DNA of 64,000 nt from Acidithiobacillus sp. YTS05. GTDB lineage: Bacteria; Pseudomonadota; Gammaproteobacteria; Acidithiobacillales; Acidithiobacillaceae. The stretch covers positions 1,488,001-1,552,000 of the forward strand of contig NZ_CP094359.1 of assembly GCF_024396695.1 (NCBI RefSeq). The letters run 5' to 3'. Shown here piece by piece: positions 1,797 to 47,954 of the stretch. Position numbers and translations under genes: made by a program. Numbering within the stretch: the first letter of the stretch is position 1; each line of letters opens with the position of its first letter. Below the pieces are notes generated by a model. The model was not told the origin of the DNA. It ran no database searches and saw nothing but the letters and a program-made list of their open reading frames with translations.

Positions 1797-2326
1797 TTTT
1801 GCCCCCCGGCTTTTGGCTTCTCCATGGCGGCCACCACCTGATGCGTCAGATCGATTGCGCCGCTGACGTAGAGAACCGACTTGTCATTCAAAATCAGTGT
1901 GTAATGGCCTTTTTTGCCAATCTCTGAGACCACCCGAACCAAGCGTGCCTGGATATTTTCGAGGATTTGGTTGCGTTGCAGATTTACCTGATCTTGGGCT
2001 GATTGTCGTAGTTTTTGCAAATCGAGGACCATTCCCTGCAATTGTGCCTCGCGCTTCTGCCGCTCTGTATTATTGAGCTTTGGAAAGTCTTCCTCCAAAC
2101 TCTTCTGCGCGGCAACGATCTGTTGTTGTTTTTGTTCGATCGCCTTTTCCTTCTCGGCAATGAGCGAATTGAGGGCCTTGGCGCCGACCTGCGCCTCCGG
2201 CAACTCGCGCAAAGCCTTGTCCAGATCGACAAAACCGATCTTTGGTGCATCCGCCAGCGCCCAGGGCGCGGCGAGAATACCGCAGCCCAAGACGATACAG
2301 CCGCTCAGCCACCAACGACGGAACAT
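1793..2326 (-). CDS. skp: Skp/OmpH periplasmic chaperone
   Basis: Periplasmic chaperone that holds unfolded outer-membrane proteins on the way to BamA. The 177 residues begin with a signal peptide (basic MFRRWW, hydrophobic core, likely cleavage after APWALA) followed by the family start DAPKIGFVDLDKAL and a long charged coiled coil (about 55-125) that would form the trimer tentacles. The start shares one base with the bamA stop (TGATG), the usual bamA-skp-lpxD arrangement. Confidence 0.93.
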   Translation of the reverse strand: MFRRWWLSGCIVLGCGILAAPWALADAPKIGFVDLDKALRELPEAQVGAKALNSLIAEKEKAIEQKQQQIVAAQKSLEEDFPKLNNTERQKREAQLQGMVLDLQKLRQSAQDQVNLQRNQILENIQARLVRVVSEIGKKGHYTLILNDKSVLYVSGAIDLTHQVVAAMEKPKAGGQK

Positions 2327-4671
2327 CAGAAGGCGTTACCCACAGTAAACTGTAGCGGCTGGGTAAGATCACCCGGCTTCTTATCCAAAGGAATCGCCAC
2401 GGACAGACGCAACGGTCCGAGCGGGCTGATCCAGAGTAGCCCGATGCCCGCCGTGGTGCGCATCTCGCCAAGACTTGGAAAATAGCTGTTTGAATAAGCG
2501 TAATTCGTGGTACTTCCATCGTTCACTGCGTTTACACCATATACCCAACCACTGGCGACGAAGGCGTTCAGACGAAAATTCTTGTTGTCTTCCAGACCCG
2601 GCAGCGGAAAATACAGATTGGCGTCGAGGAGAAGTTCGCGGGTACCGCCCACTGGGTAGCCATCGATCTGCGGGCCCACGGCGTAGGTCTGATACCCTGG
2701 AAGCGTCAAAGGACCGCCAAGATAGAAATTATTGAAGAACGGTACTGGCTTGCCGGAAAAACTGTTGATGAAGCCGTAGCGCATCCCCAGGCCACCGCTC
2801 AGCCAAGAGGTAAAGGGATGGTAATAGTTGGCCTTCACTTCGGCCTTGTACCAGCGGAGGTTCCCCGGCGGTACCGCTGCCTTCAGATCGAGGCTAGTGT
2901 ACAAACCCTTGGTGGGGAAAATTGGCGAGTTGGTGGTGTTGTACTCCAATTGATTGCCCAAGGTAAAAGAATTCGTCGAATTTCCATAATTGTCTATATA
3001 ATTCTGATACAGAGGGATCGGATTGCTGGTATCCAGCGTGATATTGGTATGCGTAAAACCCAAAGACATATAGTCATAGACGTACTCCAGCACCGGGATT
3101 CCCAGGGTGACGGCACCGCCCAGATCCACTTCTTGGTAGGGCGCCACTGCCAGCGTGGAGAGATTGGTATCGTTGCGGAATACGTTAAAGCCTAAACTGA
3201 TGCCATCCGGAGTAAAATACGGATTGGTATAGGACAGATTGAACGCGCTGCCGAGGCCGCCGACGTTAGCCGAAAAAGACAGGGCATTACCGGTACCCAT
3301 AAAGTTTTTCTGGGTGATGGACCCGTTGAAGAGGAATCCTTGGGCATTGGAGTAGCCTACCCCCACACTGAAAGAACCCGTTGGCCGCTCATCCACGGCA
3401 ACATCCAGATCCAGCTGGTCCGGATGTCCAGGCACCGGCACAGTCTTGGTGGTAACATTTTGGTAGAATCCGGTCTGTTCCAGACGCAATTTGGAACGAT
3501 CGATCAGACTGCGATTGTAGAGCGAACCTTCCATCTGTCGGAACTGCCGCCGCACCACATAATCCATGCTACGATTGTTGTTACTGATGTCGATGCGCCG
3601 GATATAGACCCGGTGCCCGGGATCCACCTGGAAATTCAGGGCCACTTCGTGGGTCTTTGGATCGACGGTAGGCACTGGTGTGGTGTTGGCAAAGGCGTAA
3701 CCATAATTACCCAGTTCATCGGCAATGGCTTTGTTGGTTGCCAAAATATTTGCCTTGGAAAAACGTTCACCGGGATGAATTTCTATCAGTTTTTCCAGCT
3801 TGCTACGCGGCAGAATGAGATCACCCGTCAGATCTACCTTGCTAATATGGTAAACGTCACCTTCGTGAACATTGACCGTAAGATAGACGAAGCGACGGTT
3901 CGGCGTAATCTGCACCTGCGACGATTCGATGGCAAAATTCAGATATCCATGGTCGAGATAAAAATTGTTCAGTTTTTCCAGACTCTTGGAAAATTTCTCC
4001 TGCGAGTATCGGTCGTTCTTGCTGAAAAAGGAGAAGGCATCCGGCGCACCGATGGAGAAGAGGCCGCGCAAACGATTTTCGCTGAAGGCATGGTTGCCAA
4101 TGATGTTGACCTGCTTGATGGTCGCCTGCTGCCCCTGCTCGACATCGATCTGGATCGCCACGCGATTGCGCGGCAGGGTCTCTACGTGCGGCGTGATTTT
4201 CGCATCGTAATATCCCATCCCCTCGTACTGTTGTTGCAGTCCCTGGACCACCTGATCGAGGGTTGCCTGGTTGAAGATATGCCGCACTTCGAGCCCGATT
4301 CCTTTCAGTGTGGACTCCACTTCATCCTTGGAAAAGGCCTTGATCCCTTTGGTCTCGATGCTGGCGATGATGGGACGTTCCTTGACCACGACGACCAAAT
4401 CATCGCCGGAACGCGCAATACTGACATCCCGAAAGAAACCGGTAGAGTAGAGGTCCTGCACCGCCTTTTGTGCCAGGGCATCGTCAACCGATTCGCCGAT
4501 GTGGATTGGCAGGTAGTTATACACCGTCCCCGGCGTAATATGTTGTAATCCTTGGATCTCGATATTGTGCACGGTAAATGGGGTAAACGCCCAGGCGGGG
4601 ACGAAGGCGGAGGCACAGAACACCGCTGCGGACAGGGTCAAGGCCCGGGTAGTTCGGGGTGAAAGGCGCAT
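2326..4671 (-). CDS. bamA: BamA, outer-membrane protein assembly factor
   Basis: Central pore of the BAM complex that inserts beta-barrel proteins into the outer membrane. The 781-residue product has a signal peptide (MRLSPRTTRALTLS to about VPAWA), five POTRA repeats (about 30-430, the first opening FTVHNIEIQGLQHI) and a C-terminal barrel ending in phenylalanine (FTVGNAF), as expected of outer-membrane barrels. The ATG at 4671 is chosen because it places the signal peptide at the N-terminus; upstream in-frame codons would bury it and overlap rseP. Five bases separate it from rseP. Confidence 0.97.
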   Translation of the reverse strand: MRLSPRTTRALTLSAAVFCASAFVPAWAFTPFTVHNIEIQGLQHITPGTVYNYLPIHIGESVDDALAQKAVQDLYSTGFFRDVSIARSGDDLVVVVKERPIIASIETKGIKAFSKDEVESTLKGIGLEVRHIFNQATLDQVVQGLQQQYEGMGYYDAKITPHVETLPRNRVAIQIDVEQGQQATIKQVNIIGNHAFSENRLRGLFSIGAPDAFSFFSKNDRYSQEKFSKSLEKLNNFYLDHGYLNFAIESSQVQITPNRRFVYLTVNVHEGDVYHISKVDLTGDLILPRSKLEKLIEIHPGERFSKANILATNKAIADELGNYGYAFANTTPVPTVDPKTHEVALNFQVDPGHRVYIRRIDISNNNRSMDYVVRRQFRQMEGSLYNRSLIDRSKLRLEQTGFYQNVTTKTVPVPGHPDQLDLDVAVDERPTGSFSVGVGYSNAQGFLFNGSITQKNFMGTGNALSFSANVGGLGSAFNLSYTNPYFTPDGISLGFNVFRNDTNLSTLAVAPYQEVDLGGAVTLGIPVLEYVYDYMSLGFTHTNITLDTSNPIPLYQNYIDNYGNSTNSFTLGNQLEYNTTNSPIFPTKGLYTSLDLKAAVPPGNLRWYKAEVKANYYHPFTSWLSGGLGMRYGFINSFSGKPVPFFNNFYLGGPLTLPGYQTYAVGPQIDGYPVGGTRELLLDANLYFPLPGLEDNKNFRLNAFVASGWVYGVNAVNDGSTTNYAYSNSYFPSLGEMRTTAGIGLLWISPLGPLRLSVAIPLDKKPGDLTQPLQFTVGNAF

Positions 4672-4676
4672 TTTCT

Positions 4677-6035
4677 TCACGGTTTCAACATTCTCACTAT
4701 GTCGTTGTACAGGGCGAGGAATAGAAGCATCAGGATCAGCACTATACCGATCATCTGTGCTTTTTGCATCCATTCGGGAGGCAGGGGGCGACCCCGCAGG
4801 AGTTCGGCAACGGCAAAGACGACATGGCCACCGTCAAAGATGGGCAACGGAAAAAGATTGATGACCCCGAGACTGACACTTAGCAAGGCAAGGAAACTCA
4901 GATATGGGGTGAAGCCCGCGGCGAAGGTCTGCCCGGCAACCTCGGCAATTCCGATCGGTCCACTGATGTTGTTCGTTGACACGGCACCCTGAATCATTCG
5001 CCAGATCATCTCCATAGACAGGCTGGTGACCGTCCAGGTCTGCCGTGCCCCATACGCCATGGCGGCAAGCGGATCACGACGGTGCTGTACGATGAGTGAT
5101 TTTGGCAAAGCTGCCAAAGTGATGCCCAGATAACCCTCCGTCTTGCCCCGAGCAAGCACAGTCTGCAGGGAGACCTCGCCGCCATGCACTTGTCCCTCTG
5201 GATCCTGCCATTCGATCCGCACTGCTTTGGCGGGTTCCGCCTCGATTCTTTGCGCCACTTCCTGCCAGCTGAATGTCTTGTGCCCAGCCACCGCAGTGAT
5301 TTTGTCGCCCGCGCGCAGACCGAGACGAGCAGCCGGGCTATGGGGCATGACCGACCCCACCACTGGAGGTAAATAGGGACCCAGCCCTAGCACCTCCGTG
5401 AGAAATCCGCTACCCACACTGTCTGCCGGCAGTTTTTGCAGGGGTAGCTCGACCTGCCCAGCGCGCCCAGAAGCATCCCGCAGCATGATTTGCGCTGGCT
5501 GCTGGTTGACCGCAGCGGTCAGCAGATGCTGACGAAAATCTTGCCAATCATGGATCTGCGCGCCATTGATCTGGACAATACGATCACCGATCTGCAGGCG
5601 GCTGTGTTGCGCGACAAAGCCATGGGGATCAATACTCCCGATAATTGGCGCAATACCCGGAATGCCGATCGTGCCGACCAGCGCATACAGCAGAATGGCA
5701 AGTAAAAAATTGGCCCCTGGTCCCGCTACGGCAATCAGTATCCGCTTTCCGGGTGCGAGGGTATTGAAGGCTCGCCCCCGGTCTGCCGGCGGCAGCGTTT
5801 CCTCGGGATTTTCTTCGAGCATCTTCACATAACCGCCGAAGGGAATGGCCGCCAAGCGAAATTCTGTCGCGTCCTTGCCGAAGCTACGTTGCCAGATTGC
5901 CGGTCCAAAGCCGACGCTGAAGCGTAAGATGCGTACACCGAGGGAGCGGGCAACGAAAAAGTGCCCGGCCTCGTGAAAGGTCACCAGGATACTGATGGCA
6001 ATGATGAAGGCCAGCAGGGTTGTCAAAATACCCAA
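4677..6035 (-). CDS. rseP: RseP, site-2 intramembrane metalloprotease
   Basis: Inner-membrane zinc protease that cleaves anti-sigma-E and other transmembrane substrates. I choose a TTG start at 6035: it gives 452 residues, puts the zinc motif HEAGH at residues 21-25 as in the E. coli protein, and has GAGG about 11 bases upstream. A GTG at 6059 is possible but would overlap dxr. Two PDZ domains span about 110-290; the C-terminal membrane motif NLFPLPIFDGG supplies the third zinc ligand. Sits between dxr and bamA in the conserved envelope operon. Confidence 0.94.
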   Translation of the reverse strand: MGILTTLLAFIIAISILVTFHEAGHFFVARSLGVRILRFSVGFGPAIWQRSFGKDATEFRLAAIPFGGYVKMLEENPEETLPPADRGRAFNTLAPGKRILIAVAGPGANFLLAILLYALVGTIGIPGIAPIIGSIDPHGFVAQHSRLQIGDRIVQINGAQIHDWQDFRQHLLTAAVNQQPAQIMLRDASGRAGQVELPLQKLPADSVGSGFLTEVLGLGPYLPPVVGSVMPHSPAARLGLRAGDKITAVAGHKTFSWQEVAQRIEAEPAKAVRIEWQDPEGQVHGGEVSLQTVLARGKTEGYLGITLAALPKSLIVQHRRDPLAAMAYGARQTWTVTSLSMEMIWRMIQGAVSTNNISGPIGIAEVAGQTFAAGFTPYLSFLALLSVSLGVINLFPLPIFDGGHVVFAVAELLRGRPLPPEWMQKAQMIGIVLILMLLFLALYNDIVRMLKP

Positions 6036-37453: not shown

Positions 37454-39505
37454 CTATACCAAGACAGGCTTCAGATTTGCCGGATCGGACCAGCTTTCCT
37501 CGCCCGTCTCGACATGTCCCGCCAATCGCCAGCGATGCCGGGTTGCACGAATTTCCAGGTCATACCAATGATGGCTTTGCGCCAGCGGCCAGGAAATCTC
37601 GTGGGTTTCTCCGGGCGCCAGACGGATCTCGCGCGTGCCCAGACCATAGGCCTGGTCGGCAACCATCACCCTCTGCCCTTCTCCACCCCTGTTGTGCAGA
37701 CGCAGATAGAGGTCACCGCTTTTCTCCGGCCAGGCATCCACTTCGAGGGTGGAAGATCCCTCTCCGGCAATTCGCCGCAGATAGCCGTCGGGGCCAACCA
37801 CCGTCAGCGAGAGCTCCTGGCCCTTGGGTAGAGACATATCGTCTTCCAGGCGATCCCCGGCGCCGATGCTGTAGTGGTGTGGCAGATGGCTGCTGCCATC
37901 CCAGTACGCGGTGCAGGCAACGCCCAGGGGGGCGGGATTATGAAAGCGTAGCTGTACCTCATTCGCCGTTGCCTCCAGGCGCAGACGAGTGTCGTAGGCC
38001 AGAGGCCGGCGACGGCGCAGCCCTGCCTCCTGCGGCGCGATAGCGATCGGCTGCTCCTCCGGCACCACCGGCGCCGGCAGGGTCGATTCGTGGTGTACCG
38101 TTGCCACATAGTTCCGGGTGCTGGGCAAAGACACAAAGCGGTCATCGGGGCGGGAGAAATCAAAGGCAGAAGTTAGATCCCCGCAGACCGCCAGCCGCCA
38201 GGGGGCAATATTGGGCTCGCTCACGCCAAAGCGCTTCTCGATGAAGCGAAGCACCGAAGTGTGATCGAAGACCTCAGAGCAGACATAACCGCCCTTGCTC
38301 CACGGGGAAATCGCCATCATTGGTGTCCGCGGACCGAGACCGTAGGGAAGCTGATCGGGGGTATACAAGACCGGCCAGTCGGGGTTGATGCGATCGTGCA
38401 CCATGCCCTCGGTACTGATCGTGGATTTGCCCGGGCGCACGGGAGTAGGTGGCTGCGGCGGCGGCACATGGTCAAAGAAGCCGTCGTTTTCATCGTAGTC
38501 CAGCAGCAGTACCGTCTTGCCCCAAACCTTGGGGTTGCTGGTCAGCGCATCGAGCACCCGGGCAATGTAGATGGCCCCATAGGCCGGCGGATAGGACGGA
38601 TGTTCCGAATACCCGGCGGGAACGGTGATCCAGGAGACCTGGGGCAGACGGTCCTGCAGCACATCCTCGCGCAGGGCCGCCACGCCACCGGGTAATGCCG
38701 CCCGCTGGTACAATGGTGAGCTACTGGAAGCATCGGCGAAGGGCTGGAAGTAGAGCAGCGCGTTTTCACCAAAGTTGCCCGTCATGGGGTTGTGATCAAC
38801 CTCGTGCAGCCCCTCCTGATACACCCGCCAGGTAATGCCCGCCTTCTCCAGACGCTCGGCATAGGTCGGCCAGGTAAAGGGCTTGACCCCCTTGGTCCAG
38901 AGATGGGTGTCGTCATCGATATAGGGACCGCCGTTTTTCCCCTCTGGGTCGATGGAGCCGGTGAAAAGCATGCAGCGATTGGGGCAGGTGGGACCATTGA
39001 TGGACGCAAAATAGTGGTCACAAAGGGTAAAAGCGTCGGCCAGGGCATAATGGAAGGGAACGTCCTGACGCAGAAAATAGCCCATGGTCATGTCGGTCTT
39101 GTTCAGCGGCCAGGCATTCATCAGTCCGCCGGCCACCGCGCCATGCTGCGACGCCCAGCTATGATCCAGATCCTGAATGAACTGCGCCGAGGTCTTCTGG
39201 GTGTTCAAATGGAAGGGTAGGACGGGACGACTAGGATCCGTCATTCGCCCCTGAAACCAGACCGGCTGACCACCCGGCAAAGTCAGAGGAAAGCGGTCGT
39301 TGTAGCCCCGCACGCCACTCAGATGGCCAAAATAGTGGTCAAAGGAGCGATTTTCCTGCATGAACACGACGATATGTTCGACGTCCTCGATGCTGCCGCT
39401 GCGATGGTTGGCCGGCAACAAGGCCGCCCGGGCGACGGTACTGCCCAAAAACGCGGTAACGCTCGCCCCTACCCCCAGACTCTGCAAAAATTCGCGTCGT
39501 TTCAT
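37454..39505 (-). CDS. plcN: Phosphocholine-type phospholipase C, Tat-exported
   Basis: Acid-phosphatase-superfamily phospholipase C (PF04185) acting outside the cytoplasm on phosphatidylcholine-like lipids, releasing phosphorylated head groups. 683 residues: Tat signal (MKRREFLQSLGVGAS, cleavage near VARA), catalytic domain with IVVFMQENRSFDHYFG, GPTCPNRCMLFTGS and LLDYDENDGFFDHVPPP, and two C-terminal DUF756 domains (about 480-680). Overlaps the Sel1 gene by ATGA. A PhoB-type operator lies upstream of the pair. Non-haemolytic versus haemolytic form cannot be told. Confidence 0.9.
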   Translation of the reverse strand: MKRREFLQSLGVGASVTAFLGSTVARAALLPANHRSGSIEDVEHIVVFMQENRSFDHYFGHLSGVRGYNDRFPLTLPGGQPVWFQGRMTDPSRPVLPFHLNTQKTSAQFIQDLDHSWASQHGAVAGGLMNAWPLNKTDMTMGYFLRQDVPFHYALADAFTLCDHYFASINGPTCPNRCMLFTGSIDPEGKNGGPYIDDDTHLWTKGVKPFTWPTYAERLEKAGITWRVYQEGLHEVDHNPMTGNFGENALLYFQPFADASSSSPLYQRAALPGGVAALREDVLQDRLPQVSWITVPAGYSEHPSYPPAYGAIYIARVLDALTSNPKVWGKTVLLLDYDENDGFFDHVPPPQPPTPVRPGKSTISTEGMVHDRINPDWPVLYTPDQLPYGLGPRTPMMAISPWSKGGYVCSEVFDHTSVLRFIEKRFGVSEPNIAPWRLAVCGDLTSAFDFSRPDDRFVSLPSTRNYVATVHHESTLPAPVVPEEQPIAIAPQEAGLRRRRPLAYDTRLRLEATANEVQLRFHNPAPLGVACTAYWDGSSHLPHHYSIGAGDRLEDDMSLPKGQELSLTVVGPDGYLRRIAGEGSSTLEVDAWPEKSGDLYLRLHNRGGEGQRVMVADQAYGLGTREIRLAPGETHEISWPLAQSHHWYDLEIRATRHRWRLAGHVETGEESWSDPANLKPVLV

Positions 39506-40239
39506 GAGTGCTTTTCCTCCAGATGCGTGATCGCGTACGCTGCTGCGGGATAATGCCAGGCCAGGGCCTGACGAAAATACGCCTCTGCCCGCGTGCGATC
39601 CTTGTCCACACCGTCGCCGTGGAGATAGGCAATGCCCAGATCATAGGCCGCCGCCCCCACCCGTTCCGCGTATAGCGTCTGTAGCAACTCCAGACTGCGC
39701 CCCTGATACCAGGCAGCCTTGTCCATGTTCTTCGGCATCAGCTTGCCGGCTGCGTAGGTCTTGCCCAACCAGAAGTCGGCATTGACTACCTGCGGCACCA
39801 TCAGGCCCTGACGGAACCAGAAGGCGGCCCGCTGCGGATTGGCGGCCACCCCCCAGCCATTCAGGTAGGCATTGGCCACCTGTCGCTGGGCGGAGCGGTC
39901 GCCCGCCTCGGCGGCCTGCAGATACCACTGAAAGGCTTGCTGCGGACTGGGTTCCACCCCAAGCCCCGCCTGATAAAGATGCCCAAGGGTATCGGCCACC
40001 CAGAAGTCGTCCTTATCCGCTGCCGCCTTGCGCAGCAGCGGGATGGCCGCACCGTAATCATCGCGATTGAGCAGTACGACGATCGGCCGGTCACTCTCGC
40101 GAATGACCCGGGCATGGGCCAGATAGGCATCAGCAACCGCGCCAGGATTGGCAGTGTTGCTCATGGCAATCAGAGGGGCGCCCAGTGCGGAACCCGACCT
40201 CCAGATTCCCAGAAATACTGCGCCGATGAATTTTTTCAT
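39502..40239 (-). CDS. Exported Sel1-repeat protein
   Basis: 245 residues with a signal peptide (MKKFIGAVFLGIW, small residues to about SALGA) and at least four Sel1/TPR-like repeats, e.g. DTLGHLYQAGLGVEPSPQQAFQWYLQAAEAG, written here only in part: LGHLYQAGLGVEP, VANAYLNGWGVAAN, LGIAYLHGDGVDK. Such repeats mediate protein contacts. First gene of a two-gene operon with the phospholipase C, four-base overlap; it may help export or stability of the enzyme, which is inference. Confidence 0.85.
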   Translation of the reverse strand: MKKFIGAVFLGIWRSGSALGAPLIAMSNTANPGAVADAYLAHARVIRESDRPIVVLLNRDDYGAAIPLLRKAAADKDDFWVADTLGHLYQAGLGVEPSPQQAFQWYLQAAEAGDRSAQRQVANAYLNGWGVAANPQRAAFWFRQGLMVPQVVNADFWLGKTYAAGKLMPKNMDKAAWYQGRSLELLQTLYAERVGAAAYDLGIAYLHGDGVDKDRTRAEAYFRQALAWHYPAAAYAITHLEEKHS

Positions 40240-40333
40240 GAGTCTCTCGCCCCCTTGCCCACCATCCGGGGGCCACTTCACCCCGTGACTGTAGCGGTTT
40301 TGTCAAACTGTGGACAAACAATAACAGAGCAAT

Positions 40334-40497: not shown

Positions 40498-42057
40498 TCA
40501 TTCTTTTCCCTCCGGCTTGCTGAGCAGGCCAGCGCGGCGTTCGGGTCCTAAATCCAGGCGCGAGTCCTGATGGAACACCCAGTAGTGGCTGCGTTCGTTG
40601 CGGATTGCTTTGGCTCGATACAAGGCCTGGTCGGCGTAGCGCAGCAGATTTCCCGGATCCTGTACGCCGTCTTCAGGCACCCGGCAGATCCCCATGCTCA
40701 GGCGCACCGCCACCTCTCGACCGTTGGCGAGCAGGATGGGCGCATTGACTCCCGCTTCGATTTTGACCAACACCAGTTCCAATTCGTCGAGATTGCGGTA
40801 GCCCTCAATCAGCACGACAAACTCATCGCCCCCCAGCCGAGCCACATAATCCGTACGTCGCAGGCTGTCGCGCAGACGGCGACTGATCACTTGCAGCACC
40901 CGGTCGCCGGACTCATGGCCGTAGAGGTCATTGATCGGTTTGAAATGATCAAGATCGATCATGCAGACCGCCAGGGTGGACGCATTGCGCTGCGCCCGCG
41001 CCACGGCCAGTTCCAGTTCGTCATCCAGGGCGCGGCGATTGGCCAGCCCGGTCAGACGATCATGCCGCGACTCGTAATCCATCTGCTCGAAAAGCTGCTG
41101 CTCACGGCTCACGTCGCGTAAAATCCCGACAAAATGCGTCAGCACCCCTGCCCCATCGCGCACCGGGATGATGCTGATGTGGTTCCAGAATTCGGTGCCA
41201 TCGTGCCGATAATTGAGGAGCTTGCCCTCCCAGGGCGACTCCTCCGCCACGGCATGATCGAGCGCCGCCAGCTCCTGTGTGCTGGTATGCGCCCCCTGCA
41301 ACACGCGCAAGCCCCGCTCCCTGACCTCCTCCAGGCGATAGCCGGTCATCAGGGTGAAACTCTGGTTGACATAGAGGATGCGTTTTTGGGTATCGGTCAG
41401 CACCACGGCGTCGAAGGCCGAACGCAGCCCAGCACCCAGCGTGGCCTGCAGATCATAGGTTGCGACGTCTTCCAGGGTTTCAGACAGCACCCGCACGGTG
41501 GACTCCAGCAACATCTGTTCGTCCCCCGGCCAGGCAGCACCACTGTGCCGCAAGAGCAGCAACAGCCCCCACGCCTGCTGCTGGCGCGCGAGCGGAAGCA
41601 CTGCCGTAGAGGAAACCCCCAGACGTTGCAAGCGATCGGTCCAGGCGCGCAGGCTGGGACCATTATGCAGGCGAGAAGAGTAAAACGAACGCTCCTCGCG
41701 CCAGGCCAGGCCTAACGGGCCCTGGCCCTCGGGCAGATGGACATGGATCGAGCAGCGCACCCCCTCCAGAATAGTGCGCGAGCCCGCCAGGGCCATCGGC
41801 TGCAGGATACCATCGGCATCTGGTAGGAGAATGGCGGCAAAGGAGGCGACCTGATTGTGCAGCACACTGTCACAGAAGCGCTGCATCAGATCCCCTTCGC
41901 TGCGGCGCGCCACGAGGATGGCGGCAATCGCCTCGCGCCAGGTCAATAGCTGCTGCTGACGACGGATATTACTGTCCGCCTGCCCGCTGCGCCCCAACAA
42001 GCGCCAGAAACGGGCGCCGGGAGAGTCGCCATGCGAATCGTCGAAAGCATCAGACAT
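40498..42057 (-). CDS. Diguanylate cyclase, GAF-PAS(LOV-like)-GGDEF
   Basis: Makes cyclic di-GMP. 519 residues, no membrane segment: GAF-like domain (about 40-205), PAS domain (about 210-320) and GGDEF domain (about 330-490) with active-site GGDEF at 409-413 and an intact inhibitory RxxD at 400-403. The PAS closely follows LOV domains (NQSFTLMTGY, RVLQG, GKLLNYRHDGTEFWN) but has Leu250 where photoactive LOV domains have cysteine. About 60% similar by eye to the next gene throughout, so the two are tandem duplicates. Last gene of the pilin cluster. Confidence 0.92.
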   Translation of the reverse strand: MSDAFDDSHGDSPGARFWRLLGRSGQADSNIRRQQQLLTWREAIAAILVARRSEGDLMQRFCDSVLHNQVASFAAILLPDADGILQPMALAGSRTILEGVRCSIHVHLPEGQGPLGLAWREERSFYSSRLHNGPSLRAWTDRLQRLGVSSTAVLPLARQQQAWGLLLLLRHSGAAWPGDEQMLLESTVRVLSETLEDVATYDLQATLGAGLRSAFDAVVLTDTQKRILYVNQSFTLMTGYRLEEVRERGLRVLQGAHTSTQELAALDHAVAEESPWEGKLLNYRHDGTEFWNHISIIPVRDGAGVLTHFVGILRDVSREQQLFEQMDYESRHDRLTGLANRRALDDELELAVARAQRNASTLAVCMIDLDHFKPINDLYGHESGDRVLQVISRRLRDSLRRTDYVARLGGDEFVVLIEGYRNLDELELVLVKIEAGVNAPILLANGREVAVRLSMGICRVPEDGVQDPGNLLRYADQALYRAKAIRNERSHYWVFHQDSRLDLGPERRAGLLSKPEGKE

Positions 42058-42141: not shown

Positions 42142-43662
42142 TCACCCGCCCGCGCTTTGCCGTGCCAGTATCCGCTCGTGATGAAACACCCAGTACTGAA
42201 TGCGTTGCTGCCGGTTGGCCTTGGCCTGGTAGAGCGCCAGATCCGCGTAGCGCAACAGACGCCCGACATCGACCTCACCGTCCTCGGGATAGCGGCAGAC
42301 ACCCATGCTCAGTTGCACCGCAACCTCTTGCCCGTTGGGGAGCAGGATGGGCGCATTGACCAGGGATTCCAGCTTGAGCAGCACCTGCACCAAGTCTTTG
42401 GGAGTGCGATAGCCCTCCAGCAGGATGACAAATTCATCGCCACCCAGACGCGCCACATAATCCGTGCGTCGCAGCCCTTCGCGCAGGCGGCGCGCCACGA
42501 CCTGCAGCACATGATCGCCAGCATCGTGGCCGTAGCGGTCATTGATCGGCTTGAAAGAATCGAGGTCGATCAGGCAGACCGTCAGGCTGGAACGATTGCG
42601 CTGCACCCGGGCCAGGGCCAGCTCCAGTTCGTCGTCAAGTGCGCGGCGATTGGCCAGACCGGTCAGGCGGTCGTGGCGAGCCTCGTACTCCAGCTGCCCC
42701 AGCAACGAATGCTCACGGCTCACATCGCGCAAAATGCCCAGAAAGTGGGTCAACTCCTCGGCCGCGTTGCGAATCGGGACGATACTCACCTGATTCCAGA
42801 ACGTCTGCCCGTTGCGCTGATAATTCAGCAGCTTGCCTGACCACGCGGCGCCTTCGCGTAAGGCCATGTCGAGGCTTGCCAGATCCGCCAAACTGGTTTC
42901 CGGGCCCTGCAGAATCTTGAGGCCCTTGTGACAGATTTCGTCTTCTTTATACCCCGTCATCAGGGTAAAGCTCTGGTTGACATAGAGCACCCGCCGCCGT
43001 GCGTCGGTGAGCACCACGCTGTCGAGGGCGGCCCGCAGGCCGGATCCCAGAATGAGCTGTAACTGCTGTTTGGCCAGGTCTTCGAGGACGTCGCCCAGCA
43101 GTTGCGCCGTGGATTCGAGGAGCATCTGGCTGTCGCTGGCCCAATCGCTTTGCCGCTCGCGCGCCAGCAGCAACAGGGCCCAGATCCGCCCGCGCCGCAA
43201 CACCGGCAGGATGGCCGAGGCGCGCAGCCCACGCCGCGCCACTTGTGCATTCCACTCGACAAAGGCCGCAGCAGAAGGCCGCTCCTCGGAGTACCAGGCG
43301 CGCCCTTCGCGCCAAGTCCTTCCCAGTGGACCTTGGGTATCGGAGATGGCGGCACTCGGCGAACAGCAAATATCGCTGACGAAGGCGCGGGGACCACTCA
43401 AGGCCACCGGTTGGAGTATCGACTGCGGACCGGGGCGCAGCAACGCCGCCAGGTCTGCCACTCCCTGTTGCACGGTAATTTCGCAAAAGCGCTGCAGGAC
43501 CTGCCGTTCCTCTGCCGCCGGCACCAACACCGCCGACAAGGCCCCGCGCCAAGCGAGCAACTGCTGCTGCTCGCGGACCGTTTGGTCCGCTTGCGGCGGG
43601 CGCCCCAGGCGCTGCCAGAAGCTGCGGCCTGGGGAACTCCGGGGGGCGTCGTCGCTACTCAC
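42142..43662 (-). CDS. Diguanylate cyclase, GAF-PAS(LOV-like)-GGDEF, tandem paralogue
   Basis: 506 residues with the same layout as the gene at 40498-42057: GAF-like (about 40-205), LOV-like PAS (about 207-318) and GGDEF domain with GGDEF at 407-411 and RxxD at 398-401. The LOV cysteine position is Leu248. Start is GTG; no strong ribosome binding site, but the length aligns with the paralogue. Follows the 60-residue protein by 18 bp and precedes its paralogue by 84 bp, consistent with one transcript with the pilins. Confidence 0.91.
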   Translation of the reverse strand: MSSDDAPRSSPGRSFWQRLGRPPQADQTVREQQQLLAWRGALSAVLVPAAEERQVLQRFCEITVQQGVADLAALLRPGPQSILQPVALSGPRAFVSDICCSPSAAISDTQGPLGRTWREGRAWYSEERPSAAAFVEWNAQVARRGLRASAILPVLRRGRIWALLLLARERQSDWASDSQMLLESTAQLLGDVLEDLAKQQLQLILGSGLRAALDSVVLTDARRRVLYVNQSFTLMTGYKEDEICHKGLKILQGPETSLADLASLDMALREGAAWSGKLLNYQRNGQTFWNQVSIVPIRNAAEELTHFLGILRDVSREHSLLGQLEYEARHDRLTGLANRRALDDELELALARVQRNRSSLTVCLIDLDSFKPINDRYGHDAGDHVLQVVARRLREGLRRTDYVARLGGDEFVILLEGYRTPKDLVQVLLKLESLVNAPILLPNGQEVAVQLSMGVCRYPEDGEVDVGRLLRYADLALYQAKANRQQRIQYWVFHHERILARQSAGG

Positions 43663-44535: not shown

Positions 44536-45033
44536 TCAATTATATGTGACGCCGCCGTCTGCGGTAATCGTGGCAGTACAAGTGCCGCCGGCATTTGTCA
44601 GACCAGTGCAAGTACTGATGCCAGCAGCAACCAAGGCATTTGAAACTGCGGTTGCAACGCTCTTGCTAGTACTAGGGACAGTCAGCACAACGCTGGCCGT
44701 GCCGGTTGTTGGAGAAATGGTTACCGCAGTCGCAGTACCAGCAGTTCCACCAGGGGTCACATTAACCGAAGCTCCACTGTTCGCGATATCCGCATTTGTC
44801 TGAATCGTGGTTTTTTGACCAGCTTGAGCAGCAGCTTGAGCGGCAGTCAATTGAGTTACGGCTTGATGAAAGTCTTGCGTAATCGTCGTCGCCTTGGAAG
44901 TTGCGATATACTGCTCATACTGCGGAATGGCGATGGCCGCGAGGATGCCGATGATGGCGATAACGATCATCAGCTCGATAAGGGTAAAACCGGCTTCGGC
45001 AGCCCGCTTCGCTTGCTGTACTTTCATGCTCAT
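44536..45033 (-). CDS. pilA: Type IV pilin PilA-like (first of tandem pair)
   Basis: 165 residues. Leader [15 protein letters not shown] of 15 residues, cleavage before F16, then [20 protein letters not shown] with Glu at +5. Two cysteines near the C-terminus ([14 protein letters not shown]) form a short D-loop. Globular part is rich in Thr, Ala and Val and is predicted beta-rich. Start has AGGAGG nine bases upstream. Transcribed from the sigma-54 promoter at 45097-45112. Confidence 0.93.
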
Positions 45034-45096: not shown

Positions 45097-45112
45097 AGCA
45101 AGGCCCGTGCCA
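45097..45112 (-). promoter_or_regulatory. Sigma-54 (RpoN) promoter of the pilin operon
   Basis: Minus strand TGGCACGGGCCTTGCT, a perfect match to the -24/-12 consensus TGGCAC-N5-TTGCW. Predicted transcription start about 50 bases before the first pilin ATG. Pilin promoters of this type are activated by PilR with PilS in other bacteria; neither gene is in the window. Confidence 0.85.
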
Positions 45113-45205
45113 CTTCCTGCTTATCCTCCCAACACCTCATTTTATCGGGTCTATGTCCAGTTCAGCAGATACTGTCTTGATGATATTCGGCGCCTCCCGT
45201 CGCCG

Positions 45206-45333
45206 ATGTCCCGTGTTTTTGCCTGACATTATGGGTTGGCCGTAAAATCCAGCCAAAATGTCACGGGTTTTCTTGTGACATCCGGGTATCGGCAGGAACT
45301 CCCGAAAAAATGTCCCAGATTTTCTTGTGACAT
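45206..45333. repeat. Three 24-bp dyad repeats with exact 52-bp period
   Basis: Copies at 45206-45229, 45258-45281 and 45310-45333. Each has the form ATGTC-N13-TGACAT: copies 2 and 3 differ at only four positions (interior GGGTTTTCTTG against AGATTTTCTTG) and copy 1 is more diverged. Centre-to-centre distance is 52 bp both times, five helical turns, so bound proteins would lie on one face. Spacers are 28 bp and unrelated. A possible half site ATGTC lies at 45153. Fits an operator array or a transposase-binding transposon end. Confidence 0.75.
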
Positions 45334-45416: not shown

Positions 45417-45878
45417 ATGTCTACAGAGATTTCGGTGATGTTGGCAAGCCTGCTGACGGGAAAGACGACCAAGACCATCTATCGCTGGGTGGACGATGGC
45501 ATACTGTCCCCCCGGCAGTCCGGGGCCGACAACAAAGGCAGCTTTTTGCTGGCTCTACCTGATCTTGCCGCGCACCTCAGCCTGCCAGTCTCCGCCGAAC
45601 TGGAGGCCGCCCTGCAGGATGCCATGGAGGGCAAGGCCGCTGGCTTCCACAACATCGCGTTGATCTTTCTGGAGGCCGGACAGCCGGACATTGCCATCCG
45701 CTGGTTGGAGATGGCGGCCAAGAAGGGACATGCCGACGCCATGGAGTGGTTGGCCACTGGGTATCTGGAAGGACTGGGCACCGAAGTGAATCTCGCCCAT
45801 GGCATCGAGTGGCTGGGCAAGGCCGCCGTGGCCGGCCATCCGGTCGCCCTCGCCAAGCTCCGCGCCCTGGATTCCTGA
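45417..45878 (+). CDS. Helix-turn-helix plus Sel1-repeat protein
   Basis: 153 residues, start ATG with GAGGAG seven bases upstream. N-terminal MerR/excisionase-like DNA-binding segment (about 8-50): LASLLTGKTTKTIYRWVDDG then ILSPRQSG, like a helix-turn-helix that reads DNA with a tyrosine-arginine-tryptophan recognition helix. C-terminal Sel1-like repeats (about 75-150): FHNIALIFLEAGQPDIAIRW and MEWLATGYLEGLGTEVN. Downstream of the 52-bp repeat array by 83 bp, which it might bind. Function unknown; lies in the accessory region. Confidence 0.75.
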   Translation: MSTEISVMLASLLTGKTTKTIYRWVDDGILSPRQSGADNKGSFLLALPDLAAHLSLPVSAELEAALQDAMEGKAAGFHNIALIFLEAGQPDIAIRWLEMAAKKGHADAMEWLATGYLEGLGTEVNLAHGIEWLGKAAVAGHPVALAKLRALDS

Positions 45879-46201
45879 CAGACAAACGTCAGGAACCATT
45901 ATTCGCGACGGATGTAACTAGGCTCAGGTAACCTTTCAAAACCTGGTCGGGCAAACAAGAAACCCTGGATCAGAGAAATACCCAAGCTTTCAAGGCAAAG
46001 ATACTCTTCACGAGTCTCGACGCCTTCTGCAATCACACCGATACCAAGGTCATTGCACATGCTTGTCGTCGCGCGGACGACGGCTTGCTTAAAGATATCC
46101 TGATCAATGTTGCGAATGAGCTTCAGATCAATCTTGATCAAATCTGGCCGGATCTCTATCAGATGATTCAGACCTGCATAGCCCTCGCCAAAGTCGTCCA
46201 G

Positions 46202-46226
46202 TGAAGTGGCCCCCGAAAGTTGGACA
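46202..46226 (+). repeat. Left inverted repeat of the IS3 element
   Basis: 25 bases starting TGAAGTGGCCCCC and ending TTGGACA; 19 of 25 positions match the right repeat, mismatches lying mainly at positions 14-18. Confidence 0.9.
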
Positions 46227-46264
46227 AGGGGTTAAGCTCTGGGCTTCAGGAAAGGAGTCGAGGG

Positions 46265-46570
46265 ATGAAGGGAAAACGCAAGCAGTACAAGCCGGAATTC
46301 AAGGCGCAGGTAGCCCTGGCGGCCTTGCAGGGCGATAAGACGATGGCCGAGCTGGCGCAAGAATTTGGGGTACACCCCACCATGATCAATGCCTGGCGCC
46401 GGCAGCTGGTGGAGCATGCGGCCACGGCCTTTGAACGGGGAAAGTCCCGGACCGAGGAGCCCGTGGACGTGCAGGCTTTGTATCGGAAGATCGGACAGCT
46501 GGAGATGGAACGCGATTTTTTAGCCTCCAGGCCCGGTCTCATGTCTCGGATCGGGAAAGGCGCCAAATGA
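46265..46570 (+). CDS. IS3-family transposase OrfA
   Basis: 101-residue helix-turn-helix subunit: KRKQYKPEFKAQVALAALQG, then MAELAQEFGVHPTMINAWRR recognition part and a leucine-rich coiled coil (YRKIGQLEMERDFL). ATG has AAAGGAG upstream. Its stop overlaps the orfB start as ATGA; no A6G slippery run is seen, so OrfB may be made by re-initiation. Confidence 0.92.
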   Translation: MKGKRKQYKPEFKAQVALAALQGDKTMAELAQEFGVHPTMINAWRRQLVEHAATAFERGKSRTEEPVDVQALYRKIGQLEMERDFLASRPGLMSRIGKGAK

Positions 46571-47391
46571 TCGACCGGGCCCAAACCCCAGTTTCTGTGC
46601 AACGGCAATGCGCTCTTTTGGGCGTGCCCCGCAGTACGGTCTATTACCGCGCGCATCCTCGGCCGATGGGCGACGGGCTGTTGCGGGCGATCGATCGCCT
46701 CTACACCGCCTTTCCATTCATGGGTAGGCGGCAGATCCATCGGATGCTGAAAGCGGAGAATGTCGTGGTCAACCGCAAAACGGTACACCGGGCCATGCGT
46801 ATCCTCGACATTGCCGCGGTGGCGCCCGGACCACACACCAGCAAGCCCCACCCCCAGCACCCAAAATATCCTTATCTGTTGCGTGGCGTGACGGTGGACC
46901 GTCCCCACCAGGTCTGGTCCGCGGATGTGACCTATCTGCCCATGGCACGAGGATTTCAATACCTCGTAGCCGTAGTGGACTGGTTCAGTCGTAAGGTGTT
47001 GTCCTGGCGGGTTTCCAACAGTCTTGACGCGGGTTTCTGCGTAGAGGCCCTGAAAGAGGCCATACGCCGCTATGGCACCCCCGAGATCTTCAACACGGAT
47101 CAGGGTGCTCAGTTCACCGCGGAGTCCTTCCTCTCTGTACTCCGCCAGCACGGCATTCGAATCAGTATGGACGGCAAAGGCCGGGCCCTGGATAACGTCT
47201 TTGTCGAACGGCTTTGGCGCACCGTCAAATACGAGCACGTCTACCTGCGGCCAGCAGAAACTGGAACCGAGTTGAAAGCTGGCCTCAGAGCCTACTTCGA
47301 CTGGTATAATGCCGAAAGACCGCACTCCTCTCTGGGAGACAGAACACCCGATGTGGTCTATGCAGAAGGTTTACAAAGGCTGGTGGCCTGA
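46567..47391 (+). CDS. IS3-family transposase OrfB (DDE integrase)
   Basis: 274 residues: N-terminal HTH_21 region (CALLGVPRSTVYYR, GRRQIHRMLKAENVVVN) and retroviral-integrase-like core with catalytic D120 (VWSADVTYL), D178 (FNTDQGAQF) and E214 (LDNVFVERLWRTVKYE). D178 to E214 spans 35 residues, the DD(35)E spacing. Appears complete. Confidence 0.95.
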   Translation: MIDRAQTPVSVQRQCALLGVPRSTVYYRAHPRPMGDGLLRAIDRLYTAFPFMGRRQIHRMLKAENVVVNRKTVHRAMRILDIAAVAPGPHTSKPHPQHPKYPYLLRGVTVDRPHQVWSADVTYLPMARGFQYLVAVVDWFSRKVLSWRVSNSLDAGFCVEALKEAIRRYGTPEIFNTDQGAQFTAESFLSVLRQHGIRISMDGKGRALDNVFVERLWRTVKYEHVYLRPAETGTELKAGLRAYFDWYNAERPHSSLGDRTPDVVYAEGLQRLVA

Positions 47392-47434: not shown

Positions 47435-47459
47435 TGTCCAATCCAGGGGGGCCACCTCA
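47435..47459 (-). repeat. Right inverted repeat of the IS3 element
   Basis: Reading inward on the minus strand: TGAGGTGGCCCCC to TTGGACA, paired with the left repeat at 46202-46226. Confidence 0.9.
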
Positions 47460-47954
47460 CAGCGCGATAGTAAAGCCATGATAACGATAGACGTCGATGA
47501 TATTCATCAGGTGGTTACGATCTACGATCTTTTCTGCCTCGGCTACCTCAAAAATTAATCGGTTCAAATCGAAATGGTAGAGCTTAGCCGCTTCAATAGT
47601 TGCTCGAATACAGGTTTTCGGATTGTAAATAGCATTTGGCATAAAATTAATGCTTAGCATCGTCTGACAATCTGAAGACGATAGCCCTAGCTCAGCAGCT
47701 AATCGTATCGCCGTAACACGCGCCGCTTGATCGAAGAAGTAGCGATTACGGTCATTAATTTGATTCAGAATAAATCCTGCGGGTTCTTCTTTGGGACCGC
47801 GAACCAAGGCTTCATAGGCATAAATTTGATGCTTGGCGTTGTCGACAATCGGTTGAAAGGCCATCGACATCGGAATGTCGAAGGAGCCCTCTATGCAGTC
47901 CCGACAAGTGACCTGTCGAACCCCATCCGGAAATACTTCTACTGGCTCGTTCAC

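Follow-up and report, generated by a model that had tools for sequence, protein, structure and literature searches.

An Array of Three Dyads Lies between Divergent pilA and HTH-Sel1 Genes

We analyzed a 64,000-nucleotide stretch of Acidithiobacillus sp. YTS05 (contig NZ_CP094359.1, positions 1,488,001 to 1,552,000 of the forward strand), referred to below as the window. At positions 45206-45333, three 24-bp dyads of the form ATGTC-N13-TGACAT lie between two divergent genes. To the left, on the minus strand, is the type IV pilin gene pilA (44536..45033; N_methyl PF07963, 35.4 bits, cut-off 21.2), the likely target of the array; behind it on the same strand is a second pilin-type gene that also matches N_methyl PF07963 (43891..44511 for the open reading frame as listed, with a start that is possibly later). 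To the right, on the plus strand, is a gene encoding a helix-turn-helix (HTH) protein with a Sel1 match (45417..45878; Sel1 PF08238, 35.7 bits, cut-off 30.7), which we call HTH-Sel1 and predict to be the reader of the array.

The dyads, none of which is assigned to a strand, occupy positions 45206..45229 (copy 1, nearest pilA), 45258..45281 (copy 2, the most symmetric) and 45310..45333 (copy 3, nearest HTH-Sel1). Re-reading the coordinates confirmed the exact 52-bp step given in the initial annotation: start-to-start distances are 52 and 52 bp, spacers are 28 and 28 bp, and 14 bp separate TGTC from GACA in all three copies. The annotation's description of these spacers as unrelated seems roughly right. 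The middle copy matches TGTC-N14-GACA on both strands, as TGTCAC...GTGACA. The score of the array, 18.0, was reached by none of 150 dinucleotide shuffles (mean 7.3, maximum 13.0). The looser pattern TGTC-N(12-16)-TGACA has five matches in the 64 kb (shuffle mean 1.61; six of 100 shuffles reach five), four of which are the array, with the middle copy counted on both strands. Across the whole genome of this strain, TGTC-N14-GACA occurs at 19 places, compared to 13 for a backward control, and only the three sites at pilA cluster. A two-copy pattern, TGTC-N14-GACA N(5-35) TGTC-N14-GACA, was found in five of 54 genomes, every time upstream of pilA; its backward control was found in four of the 54, none shared with the forward five. 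A general repeat search at default settings did not pick up the window array, and a scan for sigma70-type promoters returned two weak matches inside or beside it.

A Predicted Sigma54-Type Promoter Separates the Array from pilA

Between the array and pilA is a predicted sigma54 -24/-12 site, TGGCACGGGCCTTGC (45098..45112, minus strand), a perfect match to TGGCAC-N5-TTGC and the sole exact one within the window. None of 300 shuffles of the same region reached its score. The nearest dyad starts 117 bp upstream of this site, and enhancers of sigma54 promoters usually sit at about such a distance. The layout recurs in relatives: in all 25 pilA upstream regions compared, the best sigma54-type site falls at -73 to -97 from the pilA start codon region (p ≤ 0.043 each against mononucleotide shuffles, with 0 of 300 shuffles reaching the score in 16 of the 25), and the array lies 115-176 bp upstream of the -24 element and never overlaps -24/-12.

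The gap between array and -24 site (45113..45205, minus strand, in the window) contains an ATAAAA tract and no second conserved dyad. Nor was a second conserved dyad clear in the gaps of the relatives, where the best 4+4 pattern occurred in three of 16 groups and five shuffles each reached two. PilR-type [CG]TGTC boxes were not in excess in the gaps (10 observed, 8.9 expected). Sites for IHF with at most one mismatch were present in 12 of 25 gap regions (6.1 expected) and exact sites in two of 25 (0.3 expected), neither of which is convincing. Sets of pilA upstream regions from genomes with near-identical PilR helices shared 1, 5, 8 and 4 8-mers compared to 3.0, 3.4, 4.1 and 5.1, no clear excess. 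Separately, we observed ATAAAA or TTTTAT in 15 of the 25 gaps, where mononucleotide shuffles predict 3.8; in the window it lies at about 45139-45146.

HTH-Sel1 Combines a Predicted Recognition Helix with Sel1 Repeats

The window HTH-Sel1 protein matches HTH_17, a MerR/excisionase-like HTH, at 13.9 bits, below the cut-off of 27. Of eight relatives scanned, P0005 reached 27.2 against this cut-off, five scored 12.8-22.0 and two were unlisted. A structure model contains two helices at residues 7-14 and 18-26, the second of which is the modeled recognition helix (mean pLDDT 93). In a fold search, Sel1 folds matched residues 57-153; the matches listed were designed proteins and structures of the Sel1/TPR type or with other helical repeats, spanning residues ~55-153, and nothing among them bore on the HTH part. 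A Pfam scan of HTH-Sel1 listed no AAA+ domain. As a protein without this domain cannot itself open a sigma54 promoter, HTH-Sel1 should be unable to do so.

The genome encodes 13 strong sigma54 activators. One, a PilR-type protein with GAFTGA, has a histidine kinase gene before it and a prepilin peptidase gene (PF01478, PF06750) after it, and the order PilS-PilR-PilD is that of kinase, activator and prepilin peptidase. The kinase has a weak 6TM_PilS match only, at 14.0 bits. When eight of these 13 activators were run against NCBIfam models, none of the 25 matches listed bore a PilR name, and the prepilin peptidase matched nothing.

The Array Remains with pilA across the Family

Among 29 Acidithiobacillaceae genomes, 23 encode both pilA and HTH-Sel1, five encode neither (G001, G005, G011, G012 and G024, of which G001 is 69% and G012 71% complete) and one encodes HTH-Sel1 only (Fisher p = 5e-5, for presence at E ≤ 1e-20 in a table compiled by hand). 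Full-length protein relatives that bear a name belong, among the 120 matches listed, to Acidithiobacillus and Igneacidithiobacillus, which would place the strain probably within or near Igneacidithiobacillus. The genome with HTH-Sel1 only, G007, lacks a close pilA, and the 4 kb examined there contain neither a TGTCAC nor a TGTCCC dyad.

In three genomes the two genes lie apart, with 1,863 bp (G019), 1,730 bp (G020) and 4,436 bp (G021) from start to start. In each, the array remains at pilA, 1.4-4.1 kb away from HTH-Sel1; the clear motif matches are on the pilA side, and scattered weak ones are present in the G021 locus, L141. Since the array stays at pilA and the sites in the strain's own genome cluster only there, HTH-Sel1 looks like a dedicated regulator of pilA. 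In L141, the separating segment (2043-5149) amounts to ~4 kb with several ORFs, two of which look like toxin-antitoxin genes by eye; the array stayed with pilA. We also noted a second pilA/HTH-Sel1 pair in G002 (L133), with 24-bp dyads TGTCTACCGA...TCGGTAGACA at a step of 43.

These arrangements bear on two other explanations. One is that the array is an operator for autoregulation of HTH-Sel1 only, its adjacency to pilA being a by-product of divergent genes. In 21 of 25 cases the array does end 43-145 bp ahead of the aligned start of HTH-Sel1, and because of this proximity HTH-Sel1 may also regulate itself. As the sole function, however, autoregulation is very improbable: it fits poorly with the three genomes in which the array sits at pilA far from HTH-Sel1, and with G007, which has the gene but no close pilA and neither of these dyads in the 4 kb examined.

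The other explanation, put forward in the initial annotation alongside an operator for the adjacent HTH protein, is that the array is a multi-site end of a Tn7-, Mu- or IS21-type transposon. Such ends carry several binding sites in a row, and an IS3-type element does lie ~0.3 kb beyond the HTH-Sel1 gene. Nevertheless, the array keeps its place between one pair of genes throughout the family, its letters varying while the place is fixed, and it stays at pilA where HTH-Sel1 is distant. The inverted copy that the annotation had proposed to look for was absent from the genome, where a 264-bp segment carrying the array matches only itself, so there is no second end there. On the family layout and the search of this genome, we rejected the transposon explanation, to which we give almost no credence.

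Array Spacing in Relatives

An unsupervised search for arrays from -480 to -80 before each pilA covered 28 regions, including second copies, with 150 shuffles each. Arrays unmatched by any shuffle were found in 20 of the 28; five were borderline, with 1-4 of 150 shuffles reaching the score (G002b, G009, G010, G013 and G025b), and three did not score above chance (G003b, G004 and G014). For comparisons between arrays we used 25 of the 28 regions, leaving out G003b, G004 and G025b and retaining G014 despite its weak score. In G004 (L143), the pilA upstream region contains two outward-facing GACA...TGTC pairs 32 bp apart in place of the usual dyads, with a score not above chance, and in the HTH-Sel1 helix of this genome YRL replaces YRW.

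Arrays contain two to seven copies. Three genomes belong to the strain's own genus: G002 and G003 have three dyads each at a step of 52 bp, as in the strain itself, and in G006 three similar dyads are set 41 bp apart. Elsewhere the steps measure 30-34 or 40-44 bp, apart from a few gaps of 62-94 bp and a single one of 20. The longest array, in G022 (L020), consists of seven TTTCCGTG-type dyads at 31, 32, 31, 32, 31 and 32 bp, three 10.5-bp turns each. Pooling 54 steps gave a periodogram with its maximum at 10.5 bp (R = 0.78; phase, 0.03 turn). When each group contributed a single set (25 steps, entered by hand), R was 0.73 at 10.5 and 0.75 at 11.0, and the Rayleigh p of ~2e-6 at 10.5 is a guide only, as the groups have a common history. 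The periodicity set omits G003b, G004 and G025b as well as weaker outer sites (G002b -426, G015 -176, G019 -339, G027a -218 and G027b -413), and the 14-group version also omits G014 and G027b. Overall, the steps cluster at whole helical turns (31-34, 41-44 and 52 bp).

Dyad Letters Covary with the Predicted HTH-Sel1 Recognition Helix

We placed every array in a common register, T-K-K-C, fixed by hand, and added a G019 site at -268. In this register, the dyads are 21-22 bp long in 24 of 25 arrays and 24 bp in G002b. Their letters differ between groups. Half-sites are TGTCAC or TGTCCC in the strain's own genus; TGTCG in G009, G010, G013, G014, G019 and G020; TGGCGC in G015 and G021; TTTCATCG, CTTCATAG and similar in G008, G016, G017, G018, G023, G025 and G028; TTTCCACG in G026 and G027; and TTTCCGTG in G022. 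Changing letters at near-constant length are what related dimers of shifting specificity would give.

The changes are paired with changes in the modeled recognition helix. Immediately before the helix tryptophan stands R (11 arrays), N (12) or H (two), and these residues are paired with GT, TT and GG, respectively, at consensus bases 2-3 in all 25, without exception in the consensus under the hand-set register. For the next residue back, Q or L goes with G at base 5 (8/8), H with A (8/8) and N or I with C (4/4); Y goes with mixed bases (A, A, A, C, T). A register-free partial Mantel test of dyad distance against HTH distance, given Sel1-domain distance, yielded 0.42 for the 25 arrays, 0.65 for 20 clean arrays and 0.50 for 14 groups, each with p = 5e-4. 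Few evolutionary events underlie this covariation: the gene tree requires a minimum of three and six changes for the two residues, and one independent pair of changes falls on well supported branches. Together with the step, which is kept at 52 bp in G002 and G003 and is 41 bp in G006, this covariation favors the initial annotation's proposal of an operator for the adjacent HTH protein. Conservation of the repeats and their spacing beside homologues was the check that the annotation had set; run in relatives, it did not refute the operator reading. What the annotation overlooked is the divergent pilA gene with its sigma54-type promoter, the likely target.

The position of the array and the promoter type also fit a more conventional explanation, in which PilR or a different sigma54 activator (GlrR, TspR) reads the array directly as a standard upstream activating sequence and HTH-Sel1 does something else. 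PilR sites read (C/G)TGTC and GlrR sites TGTC-N10-GACA, both of which the strain's own half-site, TGTC, resembles. It also resembles the site TGTCCCAAATGGGACA, which an excerpt of PMC6335251 gives for the TspR upstream activator sequence of the sox genes of Acidithiobacillus caldus; this site is likewise a sigma54-linked dyad with TGTCCC half-sites from the same family. PilR/PilS and GlrR are named among the activators in a 2025 survey of sigma factors in Acidithiobacillia, whose main text contains no occurrence of pilA, pilin or Sel1 (PMC12194929, main text).

Several comparisons nonetheless disfavor PilR, GlrR and TspR as readers of the array. On the same 21 arrays, the correlation of dyad distance was 0.66 for the HTH of HTH-Sel1 (p = 5e-4) and, weakly, 0.21 for that of PilR (p = 0.008), with PilR conditioned on its own divergence; for G002, only the C-terminal piece of PilR was included, and the G025b copy of HTH-Sel1 was left out of an HTH-Sel1 comparison. 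G019, G020 and G022 have one PilR helix, GISLQSLDLRL, and HTH-Sel1 helices LRW, LRW and INW; under the identical PilR helix their dyads differ, being TGTCGYCG-type in the first two and TTTCCGTG in the third. Similarly, the GlrR helix is identical in the seven sequences seen while the dyads differ. On the same count, GlrR and TspR sites measure 18 and 16 bp compared to 22 for the array dyads, and the N10 of GlrR contrasts with the 14 bp of all three window copies. The TspR site is, moreover, a single dyad of 16 bp (PMC6335251, excerpt), whereas here dyads of 22-24 bp are arrayed at pilA. Given the helix-dyad mismatch, the site lengths and the lack of an excess of PilR boxes, direct reading by one of these activators is improbable. 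By these comparisons, dyad letters track the predicted recognition helix of HTH-Sel1 far more closely than they track the PilR helix.

A Proposed Role for the Array in pilA Expression

From these sequence comparisons, we propose that the array is probably a binding array for HTH-Sel1 that would help a sigma54 activator turn pilA on. HTH-Sel1 would bind each dyad as a dimer; on the array, these dimers would share one face of the helix, and the Sel1 part could join neighboring dimers or contact the activator. The activator is probably PilR. This assignment is unsure because a whole PilR relative was not found in four of the 23 genomes with the gene pair (G006, G016, G026 and G028, all drafts) and is split in G002 (L105), where query residues 1-355 and 349-453 match in two different frames. 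A PilR relative is also present in four of the five genomes without the pair.

The main rival is repression. Here HTH-Sel1 on the array would repress pilA, with the phased dimers either blocking an activator site or stiffening the DNA needed for looping, and the protein would also turn off its own promoter. Covariation and layout fit repression too, and in nine of 25 cases 43-55 bp separate the outer dyad from the aligned start of HTH-Sel1 downstream of it, a distance at which the dyad may overlap the promoter of that gene. Against repression, if not decisively, stand the consistent separation of the array from -24/-12 and the gap, in which we saw no separate activator site that could be blocked. 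We lean slightly toward activation because the array is in the enhancer zone, is never over -24/-12 and is accompanied by no other activator site in the gap; repression is the less likely of the two.

Within the activation model, we raise only tentatively the possibility that HTH-Sel1 is a DNA-targeting adaptor that reads the pilA enhancer in the activator's place, with its Sel1 superhelix bringing the AAA+ ring to the phased array. Adaptor and array would have a single target, and their recognition code would have been rewritten several times in one family with whole-turn spacing kept. If so, two proteins would divide between them the tasks of DNA reading and ATP-dependent opening that belong to a sigma54 enhancer-binding protein.

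Parts of this arrangement have precedents. In Pseudomonas aeruginosa, pilA is controlled by PilS/PilR and sigma54 (PMC6058289, excerpt); the locus described here is alike in its sigma54-type pilin promoter and the PilR-type activator in the genome, and unlike in its phased array, which tracks a second protein, HTH-Sel1. The operators of the MerR-family proteins CarH and CarA of myxobacteria also consist of several sites in a row and have a design that is plastic between species, with 11-bp direct repeats for CarH and two inverted repeats for CarA over a promoter (PMC9304148, excerpt). Here, by comparison, dyads of 21-24 bp recur at whole-turn steps 115-176 bp from the sigma54 site, and their letters have changed. 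In the MerR, Rex and NrtR families, too, operator bases covary with residues of the recognition helix, and residue 6 recurs (PMC5045206, excerpt). Residue 23 of HTH-Sel1 would be the sixth if its helix starts at 18; HTH-Sel1 differs in having one target per genome and far fewer sequences. Thus, covariation of HTH and operator (PMC5045206, excerpt) and plastic multi-site operators (PMC9304148, excerpt) are already known. What is new is the combination at a sigma54-type pilin promoter, where phased arrays carry two to seven copies and the letters of the dyads turn over. Among the open-licence PMC papers listed, we found no HTH-Sel1 regulator of pilin. The family offers a natural set of regulator-operator pairs, one target each, in which an amino-acid-to-base code could be tested by single-residue swaps. 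Pilin control is little described in acid-loving mineral-oxidizing bacteria. Their type IV pili attract interest in connection with aggregation on minerals (PMC11016768, excerpt).

Neighboring Genes in the Window

Beyond HTH-Sel1, an IS3-type element (HTH_Tnp_1 and rve; 46220-47391) lies between two pieces of an EAL-domain gene on the minus strand (45899-46141 and 47457-47954) and, from this position, probably interrupted that gene. Just behind the pilin-type genes, two GAF-PAS-GGDEF genes are in tandem on the minus strand (40498-42057 and 42142-43662). A further Sel1-repeat gene, with three repeats, is located at 39502-40281, also on the minus strand.
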